From assembly GCF_003627155.1 (NCBI RefSeq), contig NZ_CP032621.1, positions 1,488,001-1,552,000 on the forward strand: 64,000 nucleotides of DNA, given 5' to 3'. Source of the stretch: Streptococcus gwangjuense (GTDB taxonomy: Bacteria > Bacillota > Bacilli > Lactobacillales > Streptococcaceae). Of this stretch, positions 48,018 to 57,833 are shown piece by piece (the first letter of the stretch is position 1; each line of letters starts with the position of its first letter). The notes under the pieces were generated by a model. It was not told the origin of the DNA, searched no databases, and saw only the letters and a list, made by a program, of their open reading frames with translations. Made by a program: the position numbers and the translations under genes.

Positions 48018-48584
48018 TTAACTATTCTCATAAGATTTCATGGCTTCTTCTACTTCTGCCAAGGTAACCCCGAACAACTCTAAGCGTTTGAGGAGTTGCT
48101 TTCCGTTAGAATAGCCGATTCGGAGAGTCTCTCCCAGATATTCTCGTCGTTTACGGCTATCTGCCCCTGCTAGAAAACCAAGTCGAATCAAGTCGCTACG
48201 ACCGATATCAAACTGACTCTCATGTTCAAATTGTTCTGTAACCTGAGCTAGAGCTGTTTTCAGGTCTTCATAGCTAGCATGTTCGATTCCCAGAGAACGC
48301 CCCTTGGTCTTGGACTTGGGAACAGCTTCATCTCGTTTGAGGAAGGCATGCTGAACTGTTGGAATGGCCGTCATAATCATGCGACGAATCCGCTCCCCAT
48401 TAAAATCTGGGTCTGTAAAGACAATGACTCCATGGCGTTGGTGCAAGCGCTGAATACGCTCTATATCCTGATTATTAATGGCAGAACCTCGCGTTTCATA
48501 GGTCTCTACATCGAAGTAACGTTTGAGATTGGCCGTATCATCGCGGCCTTCTACCACGATAACTTGAGAAATTTTTTCCTTCAT
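48018..48584 (-). CDS. rnmV: Ribonuclease M5
   Basis: The 188-residue protein has an N-terminal TOPRIM domain, VIVVEGRDDTANLKRYF (about 8), with the acidic pair in VIVFTDPDFNGERIRR (about 54). It completes maturation of 5S rRNA with L18. Its ATG overlaps the tatD stop by one base. Its expression may therefore follow that of tatD, which has an element at its 5' end. Confidence 0.93.
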   Translation of the reverse strand: MKEKISQVIVVEGRDDTANLKRYFDVETYETRGSAINNQDIERIQRLHQRHGVIVFTDPDFNGERIRRMIMTAIPTVQHAFLKRDEAVPKSKTKGRSLGIEHASYEDLKTALAQVTEQFEHESQFDIGRSDLIRLGFLAGADSRKRREYLGETLRIGYSNGKQLLKRLELFGVTLAEVEEAMKSYENS

Positions 48585-49360
48585 TACTTGCTGTCCAATC
48601 CAAAAATTCGTTCTGCATTTGCAGTTGTTACTGCCGCTAGCTCTTCTGCCGTCATGCCACGCAAATCTGCGATAAAGTCCACTACATAACGAGTGTAGGC
48701 TGTTTTGTTTTCACGACCCCGTTTAGGAACTGGAGCCAGGTAAGGCGCATCCGTCTCCACCAAAATCTTGTCCAAAGGTAACTCTTTAGCCGCTTCTTGT
48801 ATATCAGTTGCCTTCTTGAAAGTCACCACTCCAGAAAAGGAAATAGTCATGCCCAGCTCGACAAACTTCTCTGCCCATTCAAGAGTCCCTGAGAAAGAAT
48901 GCATGATGCCACCACGTGGACCAACCCCCTCGCTCTTGATAATCTCATAAGTATCTTCCAGCGCATCACGGGTATGAACAACAAAAGGCAAATCTAAGTC
49001 CTTAGATAGCTGAATTTGACGACGAAAAACCTGCTCCTGCACCTCTTTTGGCGCTGTCATCCAATGGTAGTCTAAGCCAATTTCACCTAGAGCCACAACC
49101 TTGGGATGTTTTAACTTATCCAACAAGTAAACCTCGACTTCCTCCGTGTAAGTCCCTGCTTCTGTAGGATGCCAACCAATAGTCGCGTAAAGTTGGTCAT
49201 ACTCATCCACCAACTCCAAAGCACGCTCAATCGTCGGTTTATCAAAACCAACAATATTCATCTGTGTCACACTCATCTCAGCAGCCAAGGCAATCTCTTC
49301 TGCCTCACGACCTGCAAATTCTTCTACATTTAAGTGTGTATGTGTATCAAAAATATCCAT
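48584..49360 (-). CDS. tatD: TatD-family metal-dependent DNase, 5' end rewritten by an integrative element
   Basis: The 258 residues are full length and in frame. The TIM-barrel metallohydrolase has IFDTHTHL (2-9) with the metal HxH, GEIGLDYHW (about 95), VVHTRDA (about 129), HSFSG (about 157) and ETDAPY (about 204). Codons 2-8 coincide with a 17-bp sequence, GTATGTGTATCAAAAAT, that repeats at 57778-57794 at the other end of an integrative element. The present start (MDIFD) and AAGGA site come from the element; the native start (MIFD) is stranded at 57795-57797. The enzyme acts in DNA repair or degradation. Confidence 0.93.
   Translation of the reverse strand: MDIFDTHTHLNVEEFAGREAEEIALAAEMSVTQMNIVGFDKPTIERALELVDEYDQLYATIGWHPTEAGTYTEEVEVYLLDKLKHPKVVALGEIGLDYHWMTAPKEVQEQVFRRQIQLSKDLDLPFVVHTRDALEDTYEIIKSEGVGPRGGIMHSFSGTLEWAEKFVELGMTISFSGVVTFKKATDIQEAAKELPLDKILVETDAPYLAPVPKRGRENKTAYTRYVVDFIADLRGMTAEELAAVTTANAERIFGLDSK
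49338..49354. repeat. Left attachment site of the integrative element
   Basis: GTATGTGTATCAAAAAT lies inside the tatD start region and repeats exactly at 57778-57794, 8,440 bp away, in the same orientation. A tyrosine integrase gene begins 140 bases inside. Together these define the element. Confidence 0.88.
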
Positions 49361-49459
49361 ACTATATTTCCTTCTCTTTCCTCAATATTCCTTAACTACC
49401 AGAAGAAAAGAATTTCTTTCTTCTATACTTCCCTATATTTCCTCTAGTATCTATTCACT

Positions 49460-49491
49460 TTGGTTAGTACTTGGTTAGTTCTATGGTTAGC
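49460..49491. repeat. Left arm-type integrase sites, three TTGGTTAGT-like repeats
   Basis: TTGGTTAGT (49460), TTGGTTAGT (49471) and ATGGTTAGC (49483) occur at about 11-bp spacing next to the integrase stop. The last two form a 21-bp block matched at 18 positions at 57706-57726. Such repeats bind the N-terminal domain of tyrosine integrases. Confidence 0.7.
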
Positions 49492-49493
49492 AT

Positions 49494-50633
49494 CTACAGA
49501 TGAATTTGATTAAGTTTCTCTCTCAATTCATCCTGTATATTTTTTGTTACATGACTATAGATCCTTAAAGTGATAGATTCATCTCTATGTCCAACTCGCT
49601 CCATAATAGCCTTTATGGGTATCCCTAGTTCAGCCAACAAACTAATATGAGAATGTCTAAGCATGTGAATATTATAGGATCTGTGCCCACCTAACACTAC
49701 TTCACAAATATTTTTGATAAATCTATATAACAAAGGTTGTCTCATAATGTTACCTTGCTCAGTCACAAAGATGAACTCCTCATCAAAACAGTTACTACGA
49801 AAGTACTCGATAATTTCCAAGCAACGTTCACTTAGTACTATCGTCCTTACAGAACCTATTGTTTTCGTTGTCTGTAATATTCTCTCATCATATCCATGAG
49901 CAACATAATCTATAGTATGATCAATTGTTAAAAGATTCGCTTTGAAGTTTACATCTTGATAGCGAACCCCTATAAACTCTGCGAAACGAAGACCAGTTAA
50001 AAAGATAAATTCCATTGCCAAAGCATAACGCTTATCTTTATTGTGACTTTCACAATACGATAGAACCTGTCCTAGTTCCTCTCTACTAATGAAATTAGCC
50101 TTAGCTTTTTGCAACTTCTCGTAGTCCGCTTTCTGCTTCGGAATTACCACCCCTTTAACTGGTGAGTCAGAAATATATCCGACCTTTACAGCATAATCAA
50201 AGATACCATTCAAGTAAATTTTTCGATTTTTTCTTGTTGAATTTTGAACATTCAAATTCATTAGATATGTTTGAACTAGCTGAGTGGTGTAATCTGATAT
50301 TCTCAAATTTCCTACTATTCCCATGAAAAGCTCTAAACTTTTCACCTCACTTCTATAACTAGAAGATTTTATCTCACTGGAACGAATAGTTTTCCATTCT
50401 TCCAATAGTTGACTGAAATTCATTTCTTCTAGTTGTTTCTTTTCAACTTCCTCTTTTGTAGGGGCGGTTAGAAGTTTTTCAATTTTTAGCGCTAAACGAC
50501 GTTTTGCTTCTGCTTGAGAAACTCTAGATTTTGATTTTAGAGTCACAGAGACTTGTTTCCACTTTTCCTCTCGTTCATGATAGAATTTCTCATAATAACG
50601 GTATTTCCCATTATCCAATTCTTTAAAAAACAT
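49494..50633 (-). CDS. int: Tyrosine recombinase integrase of the element
   Basis: The 379-residue protein has an N-terminal AP2-like arm-binding domain (about 1-50), a SAM-like core-binding domain (about 68-165) and a catalytic domain (about 185-375). The catalytic residues are visible: Arg in LTGLRFAEFIGV, HMLRHSH, GHRDESIT and the nucleophile Tyr in LRIYSHV near the C-terminus. It directs insertion into tatD. It lies on the tatD side of the element with its arm sites just beyond its stop. A 13-bp inverted repeat separates it from the xis-like gene. Confidence 0.95.
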   Translation of the reverse strand: MFFKELDNGKYRYYEKFYHEREEKWKQVSVTLKSKSRVSQAEAKRRLALKIEKLLTAPTKEEVEKKQLEEMNFSQLLEEWKTIRSSEIKSSSYRSEVKSLELFMGIVGNLRISDYTTQLVQTYLMNLNVQNSTRKNRKIYLNGIFDYAVKVGYISDSPVKGVVIPKQKADYEKLQKAKANFISREELGQVLSYCESHNKDKRYALAMEFIFLTGLRFAEFIGVRYQDVNFKANLLTIDHTIDYVAHGYDERILQTTKTIGSVRTIVLSERCLEIIEYFRSNCFDEEFIFVTEQGNIMRQPLLYRFIKNICEVVLGGHRSYNIHMLRHSHISLLAELGIPIKAIMERVGHRDESITLRIYSHVTKNIQDELREKLNQIHL

Positions 50634-50665
50634 TTTTTCTCCTTGTACTTTTAAAGCAAAGGAAA

Positions 50666-50708
50666 GCTATGTAGCATAGCTTAATTATAACATAACTACA
50701 TAGCTTCC
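50666..50708 (-). other. Inverted repeat between xis-like gene and integrase
   Basis: Minus-strand GGAAGCTATGTAG pairs with CTACATAGCTTTCC across about 21 bases, overlapping the xis-like stop, and a TTTGCTTT run follows. It may attenuate integrase transcription or bind a recombination protein. Confidence 0.4.
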
Positions 50709-50905
50709 TCATATTTCTTTTGTTTATACTGCAAAAATTCCTTATAGCCTTCAACATCTATATAGACTCTCTTATGAGAAGGCTTTAAAATGTATCCTTG
50801 GAATTTTTCATTTCGTCTCATCTCTGTTAGATCATTATTTAAGGTTTTTAGCGGAATATCAAATAATTCCGTAATCCCTCTCTTACTTTTATATATATTT
50901 CCCAT
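50696..50905 (-). CDS. Small HTH protein, probable excisionase
   Basis: The product has 69 residues with AGGAG upstream of the ATG. It has a short winged-HTH with ELFDIPLKTLNNDLTEMRR followed by a beta wing ending HKRVYIDVEGYKEFLQ. Size and position next to the integrase fit a recombination directionality factor. The family was not identified. Confidence 0.65.
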   Translation of the reverse strand: MGNIYKSKRGITELFDIPLKTLNNDLTEMRRNEKFQGYILKPSHKRVYIDVEGYKEFLQYKQKKYEEAM

Positions 50906-50956
50906 AAAATTCTCCTATTTTGATATAATAGGGATGATAAAAGACAACTTCTTTTA

Positions 50957-51808
50957 TTACCTACTTAGCTTGTCAGTTGCTCCGATAAAAGTATCTGACA
51001 GGCTTTTTAAGTTGTCATAAAACTCCGTAGTATATTCTTTCACACCATAAGGAGTTTCATGTTTTGTGGTCCGTGAAAATGTAGGAGGGCTGTTAATTTT
51101 ATAAGTTTCTATAAGCTCACCCTTTGTTGTTGTAATTTCCAAAGGCTTTTTAATTCCTCTGCTAGTCCGATAAATTCTAATACCCTTGGGATACATGTAT
51201 AGGCGCGCACCTTTTATAATTGCTTTGTTTTGTGAACCCTCATCACCTATCTGTAAATTAGATAAATAAGCAATCAAATAATTCCCAACCTTATCAGCTC
51301 TCTTTAACCTCTTGGTCTTTGTAAAACCTTTCCTCCACATCTTAGCAAGGTCATTGTTAGGAATTGTTAGTTCGGAATCGTTCTTTAATAACACATGCAA
51401 ATGCCACCTTCCACTAGCTTGTGGTTCAATGACCGTAATATAATCAACATTTCCAAACTGATTACGAATGCGTCGAATGAACGCTTTGAAATCCATGTAA
51501 ACTATAGCAGGATCGGTAACATGGTCTCGATAAGTCAACGTTATCCATAACTGGTTGATACCTCCCGTAAAATTATGAGCTACTAGACGGCGTAGTTTTT
51601 TCATAGTCTGTTTAGTAGACTTCAAATTATCGAGTCGTGTACTACTGGAAGTATCCATGTCATGAATTTCTCCCGTCTCCAGATTTACATAACGTTTTCC
51701 AGATATTACCTTGATAGTCTGCTCCTGTTGTCCATTCGCAGTTGTCATTTCTATCGTATCACCATACAAGTAGCTCTTAACAAGTTTAGTTGAATCTATT
51801 TTATACAT
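50957..51808 (-). CDS. rep: HUH-type rolling-circle replication initiator
   Basis: The 283-residue protein contains LWITLTYRDHV (motif 1, about 85), the HUH metal motif in RWHLHVLLK (about 140) and a candidate catalytic Tyr in VGNYLIAYLSN (about 180). A GARLYMYPKGIRIY segment follows. It resembles small replication initiators of plasmids, filamentous phages and integrative elements. An origin-like inverted repeat lies immediately upstream. No coupling protein or secretion gene is present, so it more likely serves replication after excision than conjugation, though relaxase activity cannot be excluded. Confidence 0.75.
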   Translation of the reverse strand: MYKIDSTKLVKSYLYGDTIEMTTANGQQEQTIKVISGKRYVNLETGEIHDMDTSSSTRLDNLKSTKQTMKKLRRLVAHNFTGGINQLWITLTYRDHVTDPAIVYMDFKAFIRRIRNQFGNVDYITVIEPQASGRWHLHVLLKNDSELTIPNNDLAKMWRKGFTKTKRLKRADKVGNYLIAYLSNLQIGDEGSQNKAIIKGARLYMYPKGIRIYRTSRGIKKPLEITTTKGELIETYKINSPPTFSRTTKHETPYGVKEYTTEFYDNLKSLSDTFIGATDKLSR

Positions 51809-51836
51809 ATATATTTATACTTATCGTGCTTTTGTT

Positions 51837-52006
51837 TGACGCTTATCAAGTTAATAGCGTCAAAATTACGATGATTAAATTCAGATTTATTCCATGATTT
51901 ATTGATAATAGGTTCCCTAAGACAATTGAGCTGATTGTGTCGGCGCGGCGAAAAAAGTTCGACCGCACCGCCCCAACCAGTCTAATCTATCTTAGCCTAT
52001 TATCAA
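51837..52006. other. Origin-like region with nested inverted repeats
   Basis: TGACGC/GCGTCA (51837-51862) is a small hairpin. A larger one has arms TTGATAATAGG (51902-51912) and CCTATTATCAA (51996-52006), extended by CTAAGA/TCTTAG. Its loop is GC-rich (CGGCGCGGCG, CCGCACCGCCCC) in otherwise AT-rich DNA. It lies between rep and the upstream gene, where double- or single-strand origins of rolling-circle replicons are found. Confidence 0.55.
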
Positions 52007-52036
52007 CAACTTTCACGGCATAAAGAATTTAACCAT

Positions 52037-52603
52037 CTAAGACCACGGATGTTTCAATTTGAACAACGCCCCTTTAATCGTTCGTTTATCTGATTCATTA
52101 CATATGATGAATACTAGATAGCGCAACCCATTCTTTACATATAGATCAGCGAGACCATGAAGAGCATATTTGTGCAAATAAAAGATCCAAGTATCCTTTA
52201 TTCGTAATAGAACGTCTGAATCTATCTCTCCAAAAATTTGAAACCGAAAAACTACACACCTAGCTCCAAATTCTCGAATCCCATGGTTGCCCATTGTACA
52301 TATAGGAACTCTTTCATCTGCTACGTGCACTCTCTGTATTGACTTACTCCCATCAGCTTGATCAACTTTCTTATCTTCGTAAATTGGAACTAGTGTATAT
52401 GCGAACTGATTTTCCTGAATATTTTCTTTCACTAATTCTAACAATACATTTTGCGTAGAAGCTAGAAATCTATTCCAGTTTTTTTGATTTTCTTCTATCT
52501 GGACTTTCCTCTGGTACTCCTGAAGTTTTCTACTACAAAGACGATAAACTTCCTTAATACCTTTATAAAGCTTCATAGGTATTTCTTCGATGATTGATGG
52601 CAT
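52037..52603 (-). CDS. Element protein of unknown function upstream of rep
   Basis: The product has 188 residues with a strong AAAGGAGG site. The N-terminal half is helical and charged (about 10-65). The C-terminal half is an alpha/beta region with RVPICTMGNHGIREFGARCVVFRFQIFGE. There is no motif I recognise. It is encoded 11 bases after the small protein at 52615 and before the origin-like region, suggesting a role in replication or maintenance. Confidence 0.6.
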   Translation of the reverse strand: MPSIIEEIPMKLYKGIKEVYRLCSRKLQEYQRKVQIEENQKNWNRFLASTQNVLLELVKENIQENQFAYTLVPIYEDKKVDQADGSKSIQRVHVADERVPICTMGNHGIREFGARCVVFRFQIFGEIDSDVLLRIKDTWIFYLHKYALHGLADLYVKNGLRYLVFIICNESDKRTIKGALFKLKHPWS

Positions 52604-52614
52604 ATTTGCCTCCT

Positions 52615-52980
52615 TTAAAGTTCGACAACTTCAATGACTTTTGCAGTCAAACTAAGCTGATTACGGTACTCTCCGTATACAACTGCCTTCTCAATGTCTA
52701 CAATTTCTATAGCTGTGAGCATCGGTTGAAACGAGTCAAAATCCTTCATCGATGCAAACGGCACTTTTACAGTAAGTTGCTCTCCAATGTTGTTTTTTTC
52801 GTTTGGATAGTCACTTTCATCAGAATAGATGAGTACTCCCACTTTTACTCCTTTTTCAGTCTCTGAACCAGTCTCATTTCTTTCTATCCACCTTGTAGCC
52901 GAAATAAAGCGTAACTCTTTTTGAGCAAGGAATAACGAAGCATTGAACTCTGTAAAATGTGATAAATTTTTAAGTGCCAT
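52615..52980 (-). CDS. Small beta-rich element protein of unknown function
   Basis: The product has 121 residues from the ATG at 52978-52980, with GAAGG upstream; a longer frame is ignored. It is predicted beta-rich (VKVGVLIYSDESDYP, QLTVKVPFASMKDF, KAVVYGEYRNQLSLTAKVIEVVEL). Small proteins of this kind upstream of HUH initiators in Gram-positive elements may act as single-strand-binding or accessory replication proteins. That role is inferred from position. Confidence 0.6.
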   Translation of the reverse strand: MALKNLSHFTEFNASLFLAQKELRFISATRWIERNETGSETEKGVKVGVLIYSDESDYPNEKNNIGEQLTVKVPFASMKDFDSFQPMLTAIEIVDIEKAVVYGEYRNQLSLTAKVIEVVEL

Positions 52981-53100
52981 AATTAAAACCTTCTTTCTAG
53001 CTAGACTTAAAAGCAAATCGTCTACTTTTAATCAAATAAACACTGTGACGATTACAGATAACAACATTTAAAATTACCTCCTCAAGTATAAGGAGAAATT

Positions 53101-53532
53101 TCAGCAAAATTCGGAGGATATTATGAATTTTTTTATTCTCTCTATAATACGCTCATACTGTCTTTTGACAGTTTTGTCACTAAGTCCAACTTCTTTTGCA
53201 AGACTCGAGTACGATCTACCTTCAACCACTCCAAACAGAATTTCTCTGTCTTTGTCACTCAACAAACTCTCAATAGCATCATTTATAATAGCAATTTCTT
53301 CTTTTTTAATTAAGAGAGACAATGGGTCATTATAATCTGCTATCGTATCTAATAAAGAACCTTTATCAATAGAACTACTGTCTAAACTACACAGACCGTG
53401 CGATCTATCTTTTCTACATAAATTCTCATAAGACTGATTTAATAAGTTTTCTACCTTATCCCAATCACCAGATAATTTAGCTTTTTTAATTGCTTCTTCT
53501 CTACGTTGTTCTACTTTTGTTAAATCTACCAT
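53101..53532 (-). CDS. Sigma-70 region-4-like HTH protein
   Basis: The product has 143 residues from the ATG at 53530-53532, with AGGAGG nine bases upstream. The C-terminal 60 residues form a sigma region 4-type HTH: LLSDKDREILFGVVEGRSYSSLAKEVGLSDKTVKRQYERI. The N-terminal half is charged and lacks region 2, so it is not a full sigma factor. Similar proteins in Tn916-type elements and phages control late or transfer genes. It heads the replication gene cluster and may activate it. Confidence 0.7.
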   Translation of the reverse strand: MVDLTKVEQRREEAIKKAKLSGDWDKVENLLNQSYENLCRKDRSHGLCSLDSSSIDKGSLLDTIADYNDPLSLLIKKEEIAIINDAIESLLSDKDREILFGVVEGRSYSSLAKEVGLSDKTVKRQYERIIERIKKFIISSEFC

Positions 53533-53642
53533 ATGTTGGTACCTCCTGCTGGGGTTTACCAACACTACCCAAAGGGGCTCCATAGCCTCTCGTCAGTGGA
53601 AACTTACCTTATGTGATTTTAAAAAGAACATAGTAAGATGCA

Positions 53643-53690
53643 TAAAAAAATAGCAGTTATACAAAATCGTATAACTGCTATGCATTTTAA
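53643..53690. terminator. Bidirectional terminator, perfect 13-bp hairpin
   Basis: ATAGCAGTTATAC and GTATAACTGCTAT flank AAAATC. On the minus strand TTTTTTTATG follows. It separates the three-gene cargo operon from the replication module. Confidence 0.8.
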
Positions 53691-53789
53691 TCACTATATA
53701 TATCATAAAAAATTCATAATCATTCACCAATTTATGGACTTTCACATATCACTGACTGGTTAACTTACACATGAATATATTATATTCAA

Positions 53790-54320
53790 TCACTGAAAAA
53801 CATTCTCACTATCGAGCACTAATTCTGAATAAAAAACATCAGGTGTTTGTTTAATAATTTTTAAATGATTTGTTCTTTGTGACTGTGTAAATTTAATTTG
53901 TATTCCATGTTTACTATTATAATTAACAAAGTGTGTTTCTGAATTCTCTGCTAAACATTCTAACGTACTTAACTCAGCCATGATTATTCTGATTTTTCTT
54001 TTTTCCTCTTGACTATCAACAAATACAAATGAAACTGCTGGGATCATCCCTAGCATGTTAGCTGTATCTTTCAATTTGTTTATGTTGTTCCTATCAAAAT
54101 CAAACGATTTACTTTCTGTGTCTGGAAAATTCCTTCCCTTTACAGAAATAGCTAATCTTTTCGAATCTCCTCTCCTCCTGACTGCAACAACATCAGCACC
54201 GACGTGATCAATAAGAGCAACTGACCAATTATTTAATCCTAAAATATACATTACCAAAGATTCTGAAAAATCACCGAATTGTTTTGGGAAACGAAGATCT
54301 CTTTCATCTAAACTACTCAT
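53790..54320 (-). CDS. PD-(D/E)XK-like nuclease, cargo operon gene 3
   Basis: The product has 176 residues with GAGG upstream of the ATG. The N-terminal half has the layout of a PD-(D/E)XK nuclease: Glu in FGDFSESLVMYILG (about 20), Asp in HVGADVVAVRR (about 45) and Lys in AISVKGRNFPD (about 60). The C-terminal half is beta-rich. The canonical acidic residue two before the Lys is Ser, which occurs in some divergent members. It follows the 242-residue protein gene by 3 bases. Nuclease activity and a defence role are inferred. Confidence 0.6.
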   Translation of the reverse strand: MSSLDERDLRFPKQFGDFSESLVMYILGLNNWSVALIDHVGADVVAVRRRGDSKRLAISVKGRNFPDTESKSFDFDRNNINKLKDTANMLGMIPAVSFVFVDSQEEKRKIRIIMAELSTLECLAENSETHFVNYNSKHGIQIKFTQSQRTNHLKIIKQTPDVFYSELVLDSENVFQ

Positions 54321-54323
54321 AAT

Positions 54324-55052
54324 TTACCTCGACTCTAACTCCCAGTCCGAGAATGGTTTAGCAATTTTTTTATAAATAGATGCTCCTGAAATACTATCTT
54401 TAATATGATGGAAAAATAAAGAAATCACTCCATTTTCACCATAATAAGTAAATTGATCCTTTTTTAAACGAATATAGATAGTTGGGTGTCTTTTCTCATC
54501 ATAATCTATAGTTATGTTTTGGATATTTTCGAATGAAAATTTTTGAATTTGCGACAATTCAGCGTTCTCTTTTCCAAAATTATGAATGAACGAGATAATA
54601 AATTTAGATTCACAAACCGTAATCGAACATACTCTCCCATGAAAATCCGTAAATAATTCAAAATCCTTAAATTCAAATTCTTGAATTATATTATTTCGTA
54701 AGTACCATTTTATAATAGCTCTCTCATACTTATTACGAATCTTTAGAGGAGCTTCATTTTTATTTTCTTTAGCTATCATCCAATCAATAAATGTAATATT
54801 TTGATCATATGTTCCTTTAGGAAAAGCTGATATGAACTTATGTAAGTCATCTTTTTTTACTGGATTATATTTAATATCTGTGTTTGCTACTGAATAGCCT
54901 TGAAGAATTGCCGATACTCGACCACCATCTGAACTCCCATAGTATTCTTCCGTAATTCGTCCTCCACTTACACCATTATAATATCGAAATAAAACTTCTA
55001 CACGTTCATCATTATTTGTTTGTAAAAAAACATTCAACAAGGCAAAACTCAT
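54324..55052 (-). CDS. Unknown cargo protein, operon gene 2
   Basis: The 242-residue protein is not recognised. The N-terminal part has RYYNGVSGGRITEEYYGSSD and an FPKGTYDQNITFIDWMIA segment. The C-terminal 110 residues alternate strands and end in a helix (FHHIKDSISGASIYKKIAKP), reminiscent of a small PH-like or sensor domain. It is very AT-rich. It lies between the genes at 55069 and 53790 in one operon. It could be the sensor or partner of the nuclease-like protein. Confidence 0.55.
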   Translation of the reverse strand: MSFALLNVFLQTNNDERVEVLFRYYNGVSGGRITEEYYGSSDGGRVSAILQGYSVANTDIKYNPVKKDDLHKFISAFPKGTYDQNITFIDWMIAKENKNEAPLKIRNKYERAIIKWYLRNNIIQEFEFKDFELFTDFHGRVCSITVCESKFIISFIHNFGKENAELSQIQKFSFENIQNITIDYDEKRHPTIYIRLKKDQFTYYGENGVISLFFHHIKDSISGASIYKKIAKPFSDWELESR

Positions 55053-55068
55053 ATTATTTACTTACTTT

Positions 55069-55464
55069 CTACTTTTTAACTTTCCACATTGTAACACCAT
55101 TTTTATAATTATATTCTGCTTTATACCCAGCAGCTTTTATTAATGTTATAGTTCTTTTACATATTGTTTCTACATCTTTTCCAGTATTAAAATAAAGCCA
55201 AGTAGGTAATTTATCATATAAAGGCGTATCTCTGAAATATCTAGATTGATAAAAACTATAAAAACTAGCATTAAATACATTTCTAGAGAAAAATTTAGTT
55301 CTTCCATCATAGTTATAACTCATTAACTTTTCTGTTCTTTTAAACTCCTCTATAGCATACTTTTTAAAAGCCCTATATAATTGTTCTTTTTGACTGGTAC
55401 TCATAACTTTAGTTTTATGGTAAACACTATACGATTTTGCAGTTGCAGCAGAATATACTAACAT
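55069..55464 (-). CDS. Unknown cargo protein, operon gene 1
   Basis: The product has 131 residues, is basic and contains many Tyr and Phe residues (NYDGRTKFFSRNVFNASFYSFYQSRYF). A helix-rich N-terminus (QKEQLYRAFKKYAIEEFKR) precedes it. No family is recognised. It is divergent from the XRE gene at 55611, with shared operator-like repeats between them, and is probably the first gene of the operon under XRE control. Confidence 0.55.
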   Translation of the reverse strand: MLVYSAATAKSYSVYHKTKVMSTSQKEQLYRAFKKYAIEEFKRTEKLMSYNYDGRTKFFSRNVFNASFYSFYQSRYFRDTPLYDKLPTWLYFNTGKDVETICKRTITLIKAAGYKAEYNYKNGVTMWKVKK

Positions 55465-55523
55465 AAGACCACACTCCTTTTGTATTGTTTTTTATCTATT
55501 TTAACACAAAATTGTACAGTTTG

Positions 55524-55549
55524 CTATCCAATATCTTATTTTTGGATAG
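55524..55549. promoter_or_regulatory. Operator-like inverted repeat in divergent control region
   Basis: CTATCCAA (55524-55531) and TTGGATAG (55542-55549) form an inverted repeat, with TGTAC/GTAC half-sites outside it and a further GGATAG at 55578. It is probably bound by the XRE protein. Confidence 0.55.
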
Positions 55550-55610
55550 TTAATTGTACTTAAAAAATCATATAAAGGATAGTAGAATAGTATAAAAGAG
55601 GAAATTACGG

Positions 55611-55943
55611 ATGGAAGCTAATCAATTACAAAAATACATAGCAGAGCGTATACGAGAATGTAGAAAAGAACAGAATCTTAGCCAAGAACAATTATCCAAT
55701 CAAGCCGGGTTAGGTGTTAAAGCAATACAAAACATCGAGAATATGAAATACGATTTTAAAATACGCACACTTGAAAAGGTTCTTACAGCTTTAGGTATGA
55801 CCGTAGAAGACTTCTTTAATTTCCCGCTTTCAAATAATTCCGTCCCTATAACTACATTGATCGATAACATCTCAGATTTATCACACACAAAAAAATCTAA
55901 AATCATTTCTTTGTTCAATGAAATTGTCAAAAACATAGATTAA
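55611..55943 (+). CDS. XRE-family regulator of the element
   Basis: The 110-residue protein has an HTH_3 domain (about 8-65) with QNLSQEQLSNQAGLGVKAIQNIE. The C-terminal 40 residues are helical. It is the only rightward gene in the element, divergent from the cargo operon, which is the usual arrangement of a mobile-element master regulator. Its AGAGG site precedes the ATG. An inverted repeat in the shared control region suggests autoregulation. Confidence 0.85.
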   Translation: MEANQLQKYIAERIRECRKEQNLSQEQLSNQAGLGVKAIQNIENMKYDFKIRTLEKVLTALGMTVEDFFNFPLSNNSVPITTLIDNISDLSHTKKSKIISLFNEIVKNID

Positions 55944-55975
55944 AAGAGGAACTCTCAATGAATTCCTCTTTTTGT
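55941..55975. terminator. Bidirectional terminator after the XRE gene
   Basis: AAGAGGAA and TTCCTCTT pair around CTCTCAATGAA and are followed by TTTGT. On the minus strand a shorter T-run follows. Confidence 0.75.
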
Positions 55976-56006
55976 ATGCTACTTTAACCTTCTTTTGATT
56001 AGTTTT
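55976..56006. repeat. Left copy of a 31-bp direct repeat flanking the two-gene cargo
   Basis: This begins ATGCTACTTTAAC and ends TTAGTTTT. It matches 57687-57717 at 28 of 31 positions, in the same orientation. Both copies directly follow a terminator hairpin. The right copy contains an integrase arm site, so this copy looks like a former right end. Confidence 0.75.
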
Positions 56007-56020
56007 TTACTTTATAGATA

Positions 56021-57205
56021 CTAACTATTCTGATTAAAATTTAAAATTTCATATTTTTCAGAAATTACATTTCTATTTTTATCCAAAAAAGTTTGCTTTA
56101 TCCACCTTCCTCGTATTTCACTTGACACCGAAATGGTTCTATTCATTCTCTTAATTTCCCTAAATAATTCACTTGAAAACTTTGCCTTTACTATGCCAGA
56201 TAAAGTTTTTATAGAGACATTATTTCGAGCATTGGATGCACTAGACACTATTCCTTCAAAATAGAATTCTTCTGAAAATACTTCCGCATCATCTTGCTTT
56301 TGAACTAGAGAATTTAAGTCTTGAATAAATTTATCACTTTGTTCATTAACAATAATAGTGGATAGCTTTTTCTTGTCCTTTTCCAAAGTTACAGTAAGGC
56401 CGTTTTCTTTTATGACATTATAAAATTCAACGAAAGATTTTACTATTTTATTATTCTCAAAAATTACATCTGAGTAGACATCCGACGCCTCTTTGTAATT
56501 TATAGATTCTGTAAAAACAATAAAGTCATCAAAATAAAGTTCAAATTCATCCTCAAAAAGAGTAACCTCTTCCGGACGAACTATTTCAAAATTTATATTG
56601 AATGAACCGGGGGTAAATGGTGTTAGTACAAGTTTCCCATTAGTAAATATATTATGTTCCTTTAAAAATACTTTTGATCCCTCTATAAAATTTTCCATCA
56701 AATTTATCGCTTTAGCAACGACATCTAAATCTGCTGAGTGTGAATTATAAGAATCAACTAGCTTTATTGTCAGTTGTTTATTATTTAAAATATCTGAAAA
56801 TGTTGTGGTATATTCACTACATAGCATATTAAAACTTTTTCCACTAATCAAATCCCGCTCAAATTTTGAATCGTCCTCAGGGAAATATTCACTCGCATTA
56901 ATGTTATTCTCTAATTCGAAAATTTTAACACCATATTTAACAAAGATATTATTATTTTCTCTTTTTAGAATGGAAAAGTCATCTTCTAAATAAAACTCTT
57001 GAAGAAGTGTATTCGTAGAAATATCAGAAAATAGAGTTTTCAAATTCTTAATAGAAAGAGGTTTTACAAAAAATGTATCAAAATCAATTGCATATACAAA
57101 ATAATATTTATCATCGATCTTCTTAGTAATAAATGACAATGGAATATCATAGTAATCAAAAATATAAAGATATTCTACTGATTCAAAATCCAAAATACTA
57201 CTCAT
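56021..57205 (-). CDS. Cargo pair protein B, possibly DUF6575-like
   Basis: The product has 394 residues with a strong GAAGGAGG site. The N-terminus (YLYIFDYYDIPLSFITKKIDDKYYFVYAIDF) resembles, from memory, proteins grouped as DUF6575. The middle (about 130-270) is mixed alpha/beta with LVLTPFTPGSFNINFEI, and the C-terminus has a FEGIVSSASNARNNVSIKT strand-rich domain. No catalytic motif is evident. It overlaps the upstream small gene by 8 bases, so they are made together. Its position beside the attachment site and AT-rich composition suggest a transferred defence or toxin-antitoxin function. Confidence 0.6.
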   Translation of the reverse strand: MSSILDFESVEYLYIFDYYDIPLSFITKKIDDKYYFVYAIDFDTFFVKPLSIKNLKTLFSDISTNTLLQEFYLEDDFSILKRENNNIFVKYGVKIFELENNINASEYFPEDDSKFERDLISGKSFNMLCSEYTTTFSDILNNKQLTIKLVDSYNSHSADLDVVAKAINLMENFIEGSKVFLKEHNIFTNGKLVLTPFTPGSFNINFEIVRPEEVTLFEDEFELYFDDFIVFTESINYKEASDVYSDVIFENNKIVKSFVEFYNVIKENGLTVTLEKDKKKLSTIIVNEQSDKFIQDLNSLVQKQDDAEVFSEEFYFEGIVSSASNARNNVSIKTLSGIVKAKFSSELFREIKRMNRTISVSSEIRGRWIKQTFLDKNRNVISEKYEILNFNQNS

Positions 57206-57569
57206 TTTCTAAACCTCCTTCCTGAGCATCAAGAAAATTCACATCCTGAAACTCCCACAAATTTAAATGTTCTCCTTCTAACAGTCCCACACCATGACTA
57301 GGTAAAATATTTATCAACACAGCAACTTTATCTTTAAATTTAGGATAACGTTTTTTTAGTTTTTCAATTGCTTGCTCTGATGCAAAAAACGATAAAGCTT
57401 TGGCCTCACATAATTTTGGGGGCGGAAAATTCAAACCTAAATCTACGTGGGTTTTAAAATCATCTTTTTCAGGAACCTCACTATTACATATTCTATAAAA
57501 CGAACCTTCCATCTCTTTTGCTTCAGATGGCGGACAAGCATCTGGATAATCTTCACCATACTTCAACAT
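57198..57569 (-). CDS. Cargo pair protein A, small conserved hypothetical
   Basis: The product has 123 residues from the ATG at 57567-57569, with AAGGGG seven bases upstream. Its features are CPPSEAKEMEGSFYRIC, PEKDDFKTHVDLGL, CEAKALSFFASEQAIEKLKKRYP and a final glycine-containing strand region. I recall this as a widespread uncharacterised family with CPP, YR, DF and C..LS..F signatures, often next to a larger unknown gene. Its stop overlaps the start of the 394-residue partner. Function is unknown. Confidence 0.6.
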   Translation of the reverse strand: MLKYGEDYPDACPPSEAKEMEGSFYRICNSEVPEKDDFKTHVDLGLNFPPPKLCEAKALSFFASEQAIEKLKKRYPKFKDKVAVLINILPSHGVGLLEGEHLNLWEFQDVNFLDAQEGGLENE

Positions 57570-57656
57570 ATAATTCCCCTTCAAATTAAAACCAACTATT
57601 ATTATTTTACTCTATGCAAAGTAAGTTTTCAAGTATCTACAAATATTATAGTGAAA

Positions 57657-57684
57657 TAAAAAGAGAGATTTATCTCCCTCTTCG
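57657..57684 (-). terminator. Terminator at the right end of the element
   Basis: Minus-strand AAGAGGGAGATAAATCTCTCTT is followed by TTTATTT. It would stop leftward transcription entering from the stranded tatD promoter before it reaches the cargo pair. Confidence 0.7.
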
Positions 57685-57686
57685 TT

Positions 57687-57726
57687 ATGCTACTTTAACT
57701 TTCCTTTGGTTAGTTTTATGGTTAAT
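57687..57726. repeat. Right 31-bp repeat copy and right arm-type sites
   Basis: 57687-57717 is the second copy of the 31-bp repeat. Overlapping it, TTGGTTAGT (57706) and ATGGTTAAT (57718) match the left arm block at 49471-49491 at 18 of 21 positions, in the same orientation. Confidence 0.7.
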
Positions 57727-57773
57727 TTATGCCTTAATAATGTCATGAGTCCTTAAACTGTACTCCAAACACT

Positions 57774-57797
57774 CTAAGTATGTGTATCAAAAATCAT
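57774..57797 (-). pseudogene. tatD: Stranded native start of tatD
   Basis: ATG ATT TTT GAT ACA CAT ACT TAG reads MIFDTHT and then stops. The first six codons equal tatD codons around the attachment site, so this is the original start separated from its gene by the element. A GAGG site lies seven bases upstream. Excision would rejoin it to the gene in frame. Confidence 0.8.
57778..57794. repeat. Right attachment site of the integrative element
   Basis: This is an exact copy of GTATGTGTATCAAAAAT at 49338-49354. Outside it lie the native tatD ribosome binding site and promoter. Confidence 0.88.
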
Positions 57798-57824: not shown

Positions 57825-57833
57825 ATTATAGCA
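57825..57833 (-). promoter_or_regulatory. Stranded native tatD promoter (extended -10)
   Basis: Minus-strand TGCTATAAT is followed after about 27 bases by the stranded tatD ATG. There is no clear -35. It now points into the right end of the element. Confidence 0.55.

Follow-up and report, generated by a model that had tools for sequence, protein, structure and literature searches.

The stretch of DNA considered here (the window) comprises 64 kb of Streptococcus gwangjuense (contig NZ_CP032621.1, positions 1,488,001 to 1,552,000) and belongs to a genome of 1.97 Mb that consists of a single contig. Within it, the 5' coding end of tatD is occupied by an element of ~8.4 kb. As an initial annotation of the sequence had claimed, the element is bounded by exact copies of a 17-mer, which lie 8,440 bp apart (49338-49354 and 57778-57794; 0.04 expected with up to two mismatches). 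The features at the two junctions are the following.

48584..49360, minus strand: tatD, 258 amino acids (aa), with a start from the element (TIGR00010, E 7.2e-81; solved relatives include 2gzx and 6l25)
49338..49354, minus strand: attachment core beside tatD, called attL here, minus-strand sequence ATTTTTGATACACATAC; an exact repeat that matches the empty sites
49355..49360, minus strand: ATG GAT, start and second codon of tatD, from the element; an in-frame start is found in 16 of 16 readable junctions
49369..49373, minus strand: AAGGA, Shine-Dalgarno site from the element, 8 nucleotides (nt) ahead of the start
57774..57797, minus strand: stranded native tatD start (ATG, core, T TAG), reading MIFDTHT-stop; the start is identical in 26 of 26 close empty sites
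57778..57794, minus strand: far-end attachment core, called attR here; an exact repeat, with a far-end core in 15 of 16 loci including the window

With tatD read forwards, the left junction is AGAAGGAAATATAGT-ATG-GAT-ATTTTTGATACACATAC-ACACTT and the right junction is TGCTATAAT...GAGGTTAGAAGAG-ATG-ATTTTTGATACACATAC-TTAG, where a GAGG lies between the stranded TGCTATAAT (57825-57833, minus strand) and the stranded ATG. The core spans the codons for I-F-D-T-H and two bases of the Thr codon behind them, so the earlier placement of the whole HxH motif inside the 17 bp has to be withdrawn: the first His is inside, and the codon of the second lies just outside. Likewise, the insertion had been assigned to codons 2-8, and although the 5' codons of tatD are indeed those that are hit, the core covers codons 3-8 (the last partially) when the site is occupied and codons 2-7 when it is empty. 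The other statements of the initial annotation on the junctions agree with the letters at these positions, namely that the element supplies ATG GAT and AAGGA, that the native start is stranded as a frame of seven codons, and that TatD is intact in both states, with MDIFD at its N-terminus when occupied versus MIFD in the native form, one added residue and the catalytic sequence whole. The start of rnmV (ribonuclease M5, TIGR00334) overlaps the tatD stop as TAATG, as had also been noted, and rnmV is followed by an open reading frame (ORF) without a family, ksgA and rsgA (NCBIfam naming).

A search of 284 Streptococcus genomes, which found tatD in 282, provided the empty sites for comparison. 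Besides the window's own locus, 29 tatD loci (L036-L064; L numbers denote loci and G numbers genomes) and then 20 further regions were inspected. Among the 29, three are occupied and 26 are empty and collinear with the window's joined flanks (at least 813 bp, 82-92% identity), which upholds the claim of a site-specific insertion at the 5' end of tatD. All 26 read GAGATG ATTTTTGATACAC, with the ATG directly ahead of the core as at the stranded end in the window, and thus match the stranded start in the way that the initial annotation had predicted. The 20 further regions comprise 19 with the native start and one contig end, for a total of 45 empty sites, and an extended -10 element lies 39-49 nt ahead of the core in 44 of these 45. 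Core copies within single strains differ at positions 12, 15 or 17 (G134, G103, G183 and G049, for example); these differences would fit an exchange of sequence between the element and the tatD genes of different hosts, in which strands would be exchanged within or close to the invariant ATTTTTGATAC part.

The integrase (at least 69% identity) is present in 17 of the 284 genomes, and the carriers named among nine close loci are S. pseudopneumoniae, S. infantis (two), S. hohhotensis, S. sanguinis and S. cristatus; two further integrase matches, at 22-24% identity, are not related in this sense. In every locus with a readable integrase-tatD junction (16 of 16), tatD follows the core, is intact (256-260 aa) and has an in-frame start that comes from the element (12 TTG, 4 ATG). 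The start lies 6 nt ahead of the core in 15 junctions and 9 nt in one, and an AAGGA- or GGAGG-like site is found close ahead of it in 15. Counting the integrase stop codon, the stretch up to the core measures 142, 143 or 152 nt (142-143 nt in 15 of the 16). The most distant relative (G078, 69% integrase identity) has its start one codon further out, with the frame kept. A scan of 15 loci located the far end in 14, and it was also located in G260, each time with a short dead-end frame that begins at the native start, and the elements are 5,970-10,438 bp long in the 14 loci and 8,162 bp in G260. Resupply of the start and ribosome-binding site, an intact tatD and a dead-end native start are kept in relatives from several species.

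Several loci stand outside one or another of these counts. G227 is not among the 16 junctions, as its integrase is cut by a contig end and its tatD, on another contig, starts 2 bases before the core; G264, which is without a far end, is outside the far-end counts; and G260 joined the far-end count later, its integrase-tatD gap having been scanned for an extended -10 and not for terminators. G219 is also outside the 16, since its integrase is below the cut-off and residues 166-301 were not found. This locus (L021) is a decayed relative, in which integrase residues 1-165 and 302-379 lie ahead of tatD with the middle missing, and its tatD has an in-frame ATG GAA with the ATG 6 nt ahead of the core. 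At the G264 locus (L070), which is apparently rearranged, an amino-acid-permease-like gene (so called by reading, with no family search) abuts the element backbone where the far end is missing, and the start swap is kept. A flag of one TGA inside tatD had raised the possibility of a broken gene in the occupied G183; this was rejected because the gene is intact, with 256 aa, and ends in TGA, and the other loci flagged for TGA presumably reflect alignments that overran the stop.

The insertion also separates tatD from its native promoter, and the features that bear on transcription of tatD and rnmV are the following.

50664..50706, minus strand: inverted repeat AAGCTATGTAG / CTACATAGCTT, 11 bp, straddling the integrase -10; present in 15 of 15 loci scanned
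50684..50692, minus strand: TGTTATAAT, extended -10 of what is likely the integrase promoter; conserved in 16 of 16 loci including the window
57660..57683, minus strand: terminator-like hairpin facing the stranded tatD promoter (-11.5 kcal/mol, z -4.15)
57825..57833, minus strand: TGCTATAAT, stranded extended -10 of the native tatD promoter, one of 16 copies of TGNTATAAT

The motif TGNTATAAT occurs 16 times in the window, where 2.9 copies are expected and no shuffle reached 16. The extended -10 of the integrase, TGTTATAAT or TGGTATAAT in all 16 loci, ends 50 nt ahead of the integrase start, and the inverted repeat around it is a candidate operator or a candidate site for the excisionase (Xis) or integrase (Int); its spacing to the -10 is fixed in 14 of 15 loci and shifted by one base in the 15th. 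Of 14 far ends scanned, 12 have a terminator-like hairpin 93-125 nt into the element, and so has that of G260 (13 of 15). Between the integrase and tatD, no terminator was found in 15 of 15 loci; a hairpin near 49412-49424 was dropped as a terminator, as it is without a T-run and its fold is not unusual (z -1.46). Because the far-end hairpin faces the native promoter and this gap contains neither a terminator nor an extended -10 (16 of 16 loci), the conserved integrase promoter is the likeliest new promoter for tatD-rnmV. We judge it somewhat better than an even chance that, in the occupied state, transcription of tatD-rnmV would start from the integrase promoter, or failing that from a promoter in the gap. 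A fuller proposal, that the two genes would come under a regulated integrase promoter, with the 11-bp inverted repeat acting as an operator and the host promoter being terminated at the other end, is put forward as a rather doubtful one. If it is true, a DNase gene and a gene for 5S rRNA maturation would provide a reversible read-out of the state of the element, that is, of its integration, excision or induction.

Transcription of tatD from a separate weak promoter in the 133-nt gap, and not from the integrase transcript, is a possible though unlikely course. It has a precedent in IMEVchUSA3, a 5'-end integrator of dusA for which passages of one report describe a new promoter (PMC8409611), and the preserved length of the stretch between the integrase stop codon and the core is consistent with it. 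Against it, the minus strand of the gap has no σ70 match, and extended -10 sites, which are strongly over-represented in the window, are absent from the gap. On the other hand, consensus scans discriminate weakly (44 promoter-like sites versus 42.5 in shuffles), so a promoter in the gap that does without an extended -10 is compatible with them.

It is improbable that the insertion silences tatD-rnmV, as phage-like SpyCI islands are reported to do with mutL in Streptococcus pyogenes (PMC3430984; PMC4689407, in the parts that concern SpyCI), with expression regained only upon excision. Such a report from the same genus favors the idea, and a promoter-like match is no proof of activity; but the in-frame starts, the ribosome-binding sites close ahead of them and the path from integrase to tatD that is free of terminators count against silencing, because a silenced copy would not need them. 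Least probable of all is that the element is fixed and decayed here and that the frame is kept merely by shared ancestry and constraint on the integrase site, since the failure to find a circular junction and the losses in G264 and G219 are set against an integrase, Xis and both cores that are intact in the window, attL and attR cores that differ within single strains as separate insertions would predict, and a distant relative whose start has moved out by one codon and is still in frame.

Taken together, it is quite likely that an ~8.4-kb element has been inserted within the 5' coding end of tatD by its tyrosine integrase, resupplying the start, swapping the promoter and leader, and keeping the host gene alive. 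According to this proposal, the integrase would act through the 17-bp core. The sequence shows that the edge of the element brings a ribosome-binding site and an in-frame start, so that tatD keeps its catalytic sequence plus one residue, and that the native promoter, ribosome-binding site and start lie at the far end as a dead end of 7 codons. A transcript from the native promoter would, as proposed, stop at the terminator-like hairpin just inside the element, and the integrase transcript, initiated at the extended -10, would run unterminated through tatD into the overlapping rnmV. In this way the promoter, leader and start of the tatD-rnmV operon would all be swapped by the element with the host gene alive, and precise excision would be predicted to restore the native arrangement.

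Some observations weigh against this proposal or narrow it. The 16 junctions are of shared ancestry and are not 16 independent trials, and the conservation beside the core may be partly due to integrase binding and not to selection on the start. In G113 and G147 (integrase identity 80 and 79%), translation could begin at an in-frame ATG further upstream and not at the TTG; the ribosome-binding site of G078 is weak and distant; and no far-end hairpin was found by the criteria used in G113 and G078. Insulation from the native promoter may also be a by-product, because the hairpin lies directly behind an outward-reading helix-turn-helix (HTH) gene in 9 of 14 scanned relatives. Lastly, the circular junction that the initial annotation had led one to look for was found neither in the 284 genomes (one mismatch allowed, with a pattern that fits the group at 97-100% and not other right ends) nor in IMG/VR viral contigs (exact match), so present mobility is unproven.

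The remaining features of the element, from tatD outwards, are an integrase, an excisionase-like protein, Rep, two ORFs without a family, a σ70-region-4-like regulator, cargo, an HTH regulator on the opposite strand, and more cargo.

49460..49489: left-end direct repeats TTGGTTAG / ATGGTTAG, which are probably arm sites for the integrase
49494..50633, minus strand: tyrosine integrase of 379 aa, oriented outwards in the direction of tatD (PF00589, E 1.8e-23; phrog_1)
50696..50905, minus strand: excisionase-like protein, 69 aa (phrog_904, E 2.8e-9)
50957..51808, minus strand: rolling-circle-type Rep, 283 aa (PF23343, E 3.2e-21; phrog_3419)
52037..52603, minus strand: backbone ORF, 188 aa, no family above the cut-off
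52615..52983, minus strand: backbone ORF, 122 aa, no family
53101..53532, minus strand: σ70-region-4-like regulator, 143 aa (TIGR02937, E 2e-11; phrog_1740)
53790..55464, minus strand: cargo ORFs of 176, 242 and 131 aa, found among 17 loci compared only in L025 and L028, and not in L076
55611..55943, plus strand: Cro/C1-type HTH regulator, 110 aa (PF01381, E 8.6e-12)
56021..57584, minus strand: further cargo at the right end, two ORFs (394 and 128 aa) without a Pfam family; also in L025, L028, L032 (= L071) and L076
57706..57724: right-end copy of the direct repeats TTGGTTAG / ATGGTTAG, again probably arm sites for the integrase (95% match to 49471-49489)

The element is probably an integrative and mobilizable element (IME) or a similar non-conjugative element. 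Traits of IMEs as defined in the passages on this class in PMC5357655 are present, namely flanking direct repeats, a complete integrase gene and no Pfam match to type IV secretion genes (VirB4 or others) among the 12 main element ORFs. In addition, the Rep gene (PF23343) directly precedes xis and int, as in the relaxase-excisionase-integrase order that the same passages give for streptococcal IMEs with rolling-circle-type relaxases, which usually have the coupling protein TcpA and in some cases do without it. In the relatives L067 (G113) and L032 (G147), the integrase and xis are kept beside another Rep with PF01719 and PF00910 (PF01719 just under the cut-off in G113), a combination listed there as a relaxase class; the tatD-specific integrase-xis module therefore seems to be exchanged between element types. 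On this gene order and the Rep class of G113 and G147, an IME is the best filing, with the window's Rep as a candidate relaxase that may belong to the Rel_PHA00330 class of the same paper. The Rep of the window has 632 homologs at E ≤ 0.001 (the best 120 of the 632 being listed) and no solved-structure relative by sequence at E ≤ 0.01.

A phage satellite of the PICI-like kind was considered and rejected, as no head or packaging family was found at E ≤ 0.1 in the 12 main ORFs (for the HTH protein, among the best 25 of 28 families). The word tatD is absent from the main text of a survey of satellite prophages (PMC6813308), megablast of 49361-57797 gave no match among phage and plasmid records, and a search of viral contigs gave no relative of the integrase. 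When 8 ORFs were scanned with PADLOC models, the 110-aa regulator matched generic HTH models and there were two further matches, both weak (E 0.005 and 0.014), so a defense role of the cargo is unsupported. The single Rfam match was below the gathering score and was taken as chance.

Other observations concern the ends and surroundings of the element. Its right end is duplicated (55975-56015 and 57686-57726; 41 nt, 83%) on either side of the 394- and 128-aa cargo, and 9 relatives without this cargo end right behind the HTH gene; the cargo looks to have been added by accretion. On the plus strand, 50921-51008 has an extended -10, TGATATAAT, and behind it a stem of GCTTGTCAG and CTGACAGGC that carries a T-run and lies antisense to the 3' end of rep; this is possibly a small antisense RNA or a two-way terminator. 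Distant integrases (36-39% identity; L016, L017, L018, L019, L020 and L023) lie ~100-200 nt upstream of co-directional host-like genes, which by NCBIfam are rnpA (L016; L018 by likeness), tig (L017), the MnmL/YtqA radical SAM gene (L020) and mutY (L023), with no match for L019; perhaps these integrases form a clade of 5'-end integrators.

Streptococcal elements that use tatD have been reported before: the sections of these papers that deal with tatD describe IME_SanC238_tatD, integrated in the 5' end of the gene (PMC5704250), two tatD IMEs in S. salivarius (PMC7563491), and, out of 128 IMEs with a tyrosine integrase, 19 that sit at an end of guaA, tatD or ebfC (PMC5357655). These resemble the present element, by description and not by integrase sequence, in their tyrosine integrase, target (the 5' end for SanC238), streptococcal host and lack of conjugation functions. 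In contrast, the start swap is not described in those sections, and the window's element has no TcpA-type coupling protein and no Pfam match to a relaxase. The window and its relatives have the traits of tatD-specific elements, with the site in the 5' end of tatD and the integrase beside it in all readable junctions.

They also share with start-resupplying 5'-end integrators a new in-frame start and ribosome-binding site, to which the conserved integrase -10 would add a new promoter. The relevant passages of PMC8409611 report that IMEVchUSA3 restores the frame of dusA with its own N-terminus and promoter, as followed with a lacZ fusion, and cite SXT in prfC for replacement of both promoter and start. 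However, the new dusA N-terminus is 61% identical over 35 residues, whereas tatD in the window gains one residue, as known from sequence; IMEVchUSA3 and the window's element are unrelated, as are their bacteria; and the SXT/R391 family consists of conjugative elements of Gammaproteobacteria. Within streptococci, SpyCI is alike in its insertion at a gene's 5' end with downstream genes on the same mRNA, and differs in being a phage-like island whose insertion otherwise shuts the operon down; the passages on SpyCIM5 describe a promoter inside the integrase ORF that rescues expression after integrase decay (PMC3430984). Integrative and conjugative elements in ftsK, rbgA and ebfC also integrate at 5' ends and in some cases replace the upstream sequence and promoter, but the N-terminus is unmodified according to the part of PMC4701971 that treats them.

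With these precedents published for tatD, dusA and prfC, the weight that the initial annotation had placed on the rarity of 5'-end integration with promoter exchange was too great. No description of the tatD start swap was found in the titles and passages of the literature covered, supplements and most subscription journals aside; the site and the replacement of start and promoter each have precedents, so this is a well-documented example and not a new kind. It is a clean natural case in which a conserved coding stretch of a housekeeping gene is the landing site and the gene is not killed, for which the element has to supply an in-frame start. With 16 junctions from several species and 45 empty sites, the family makes the effect of integration on tatD-rnmV directly measurable. 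Added here to the known systems are the count of junctions, the one-way arrangement of a terminator at one end and an open path at the other, and an integrase promoter that is conserved along with its inverted repeat. The case also suggests a simple rule for other 5'-end integrators, in which the incoming host transcript would be blocked and the integrase transcript would run into the target gene.

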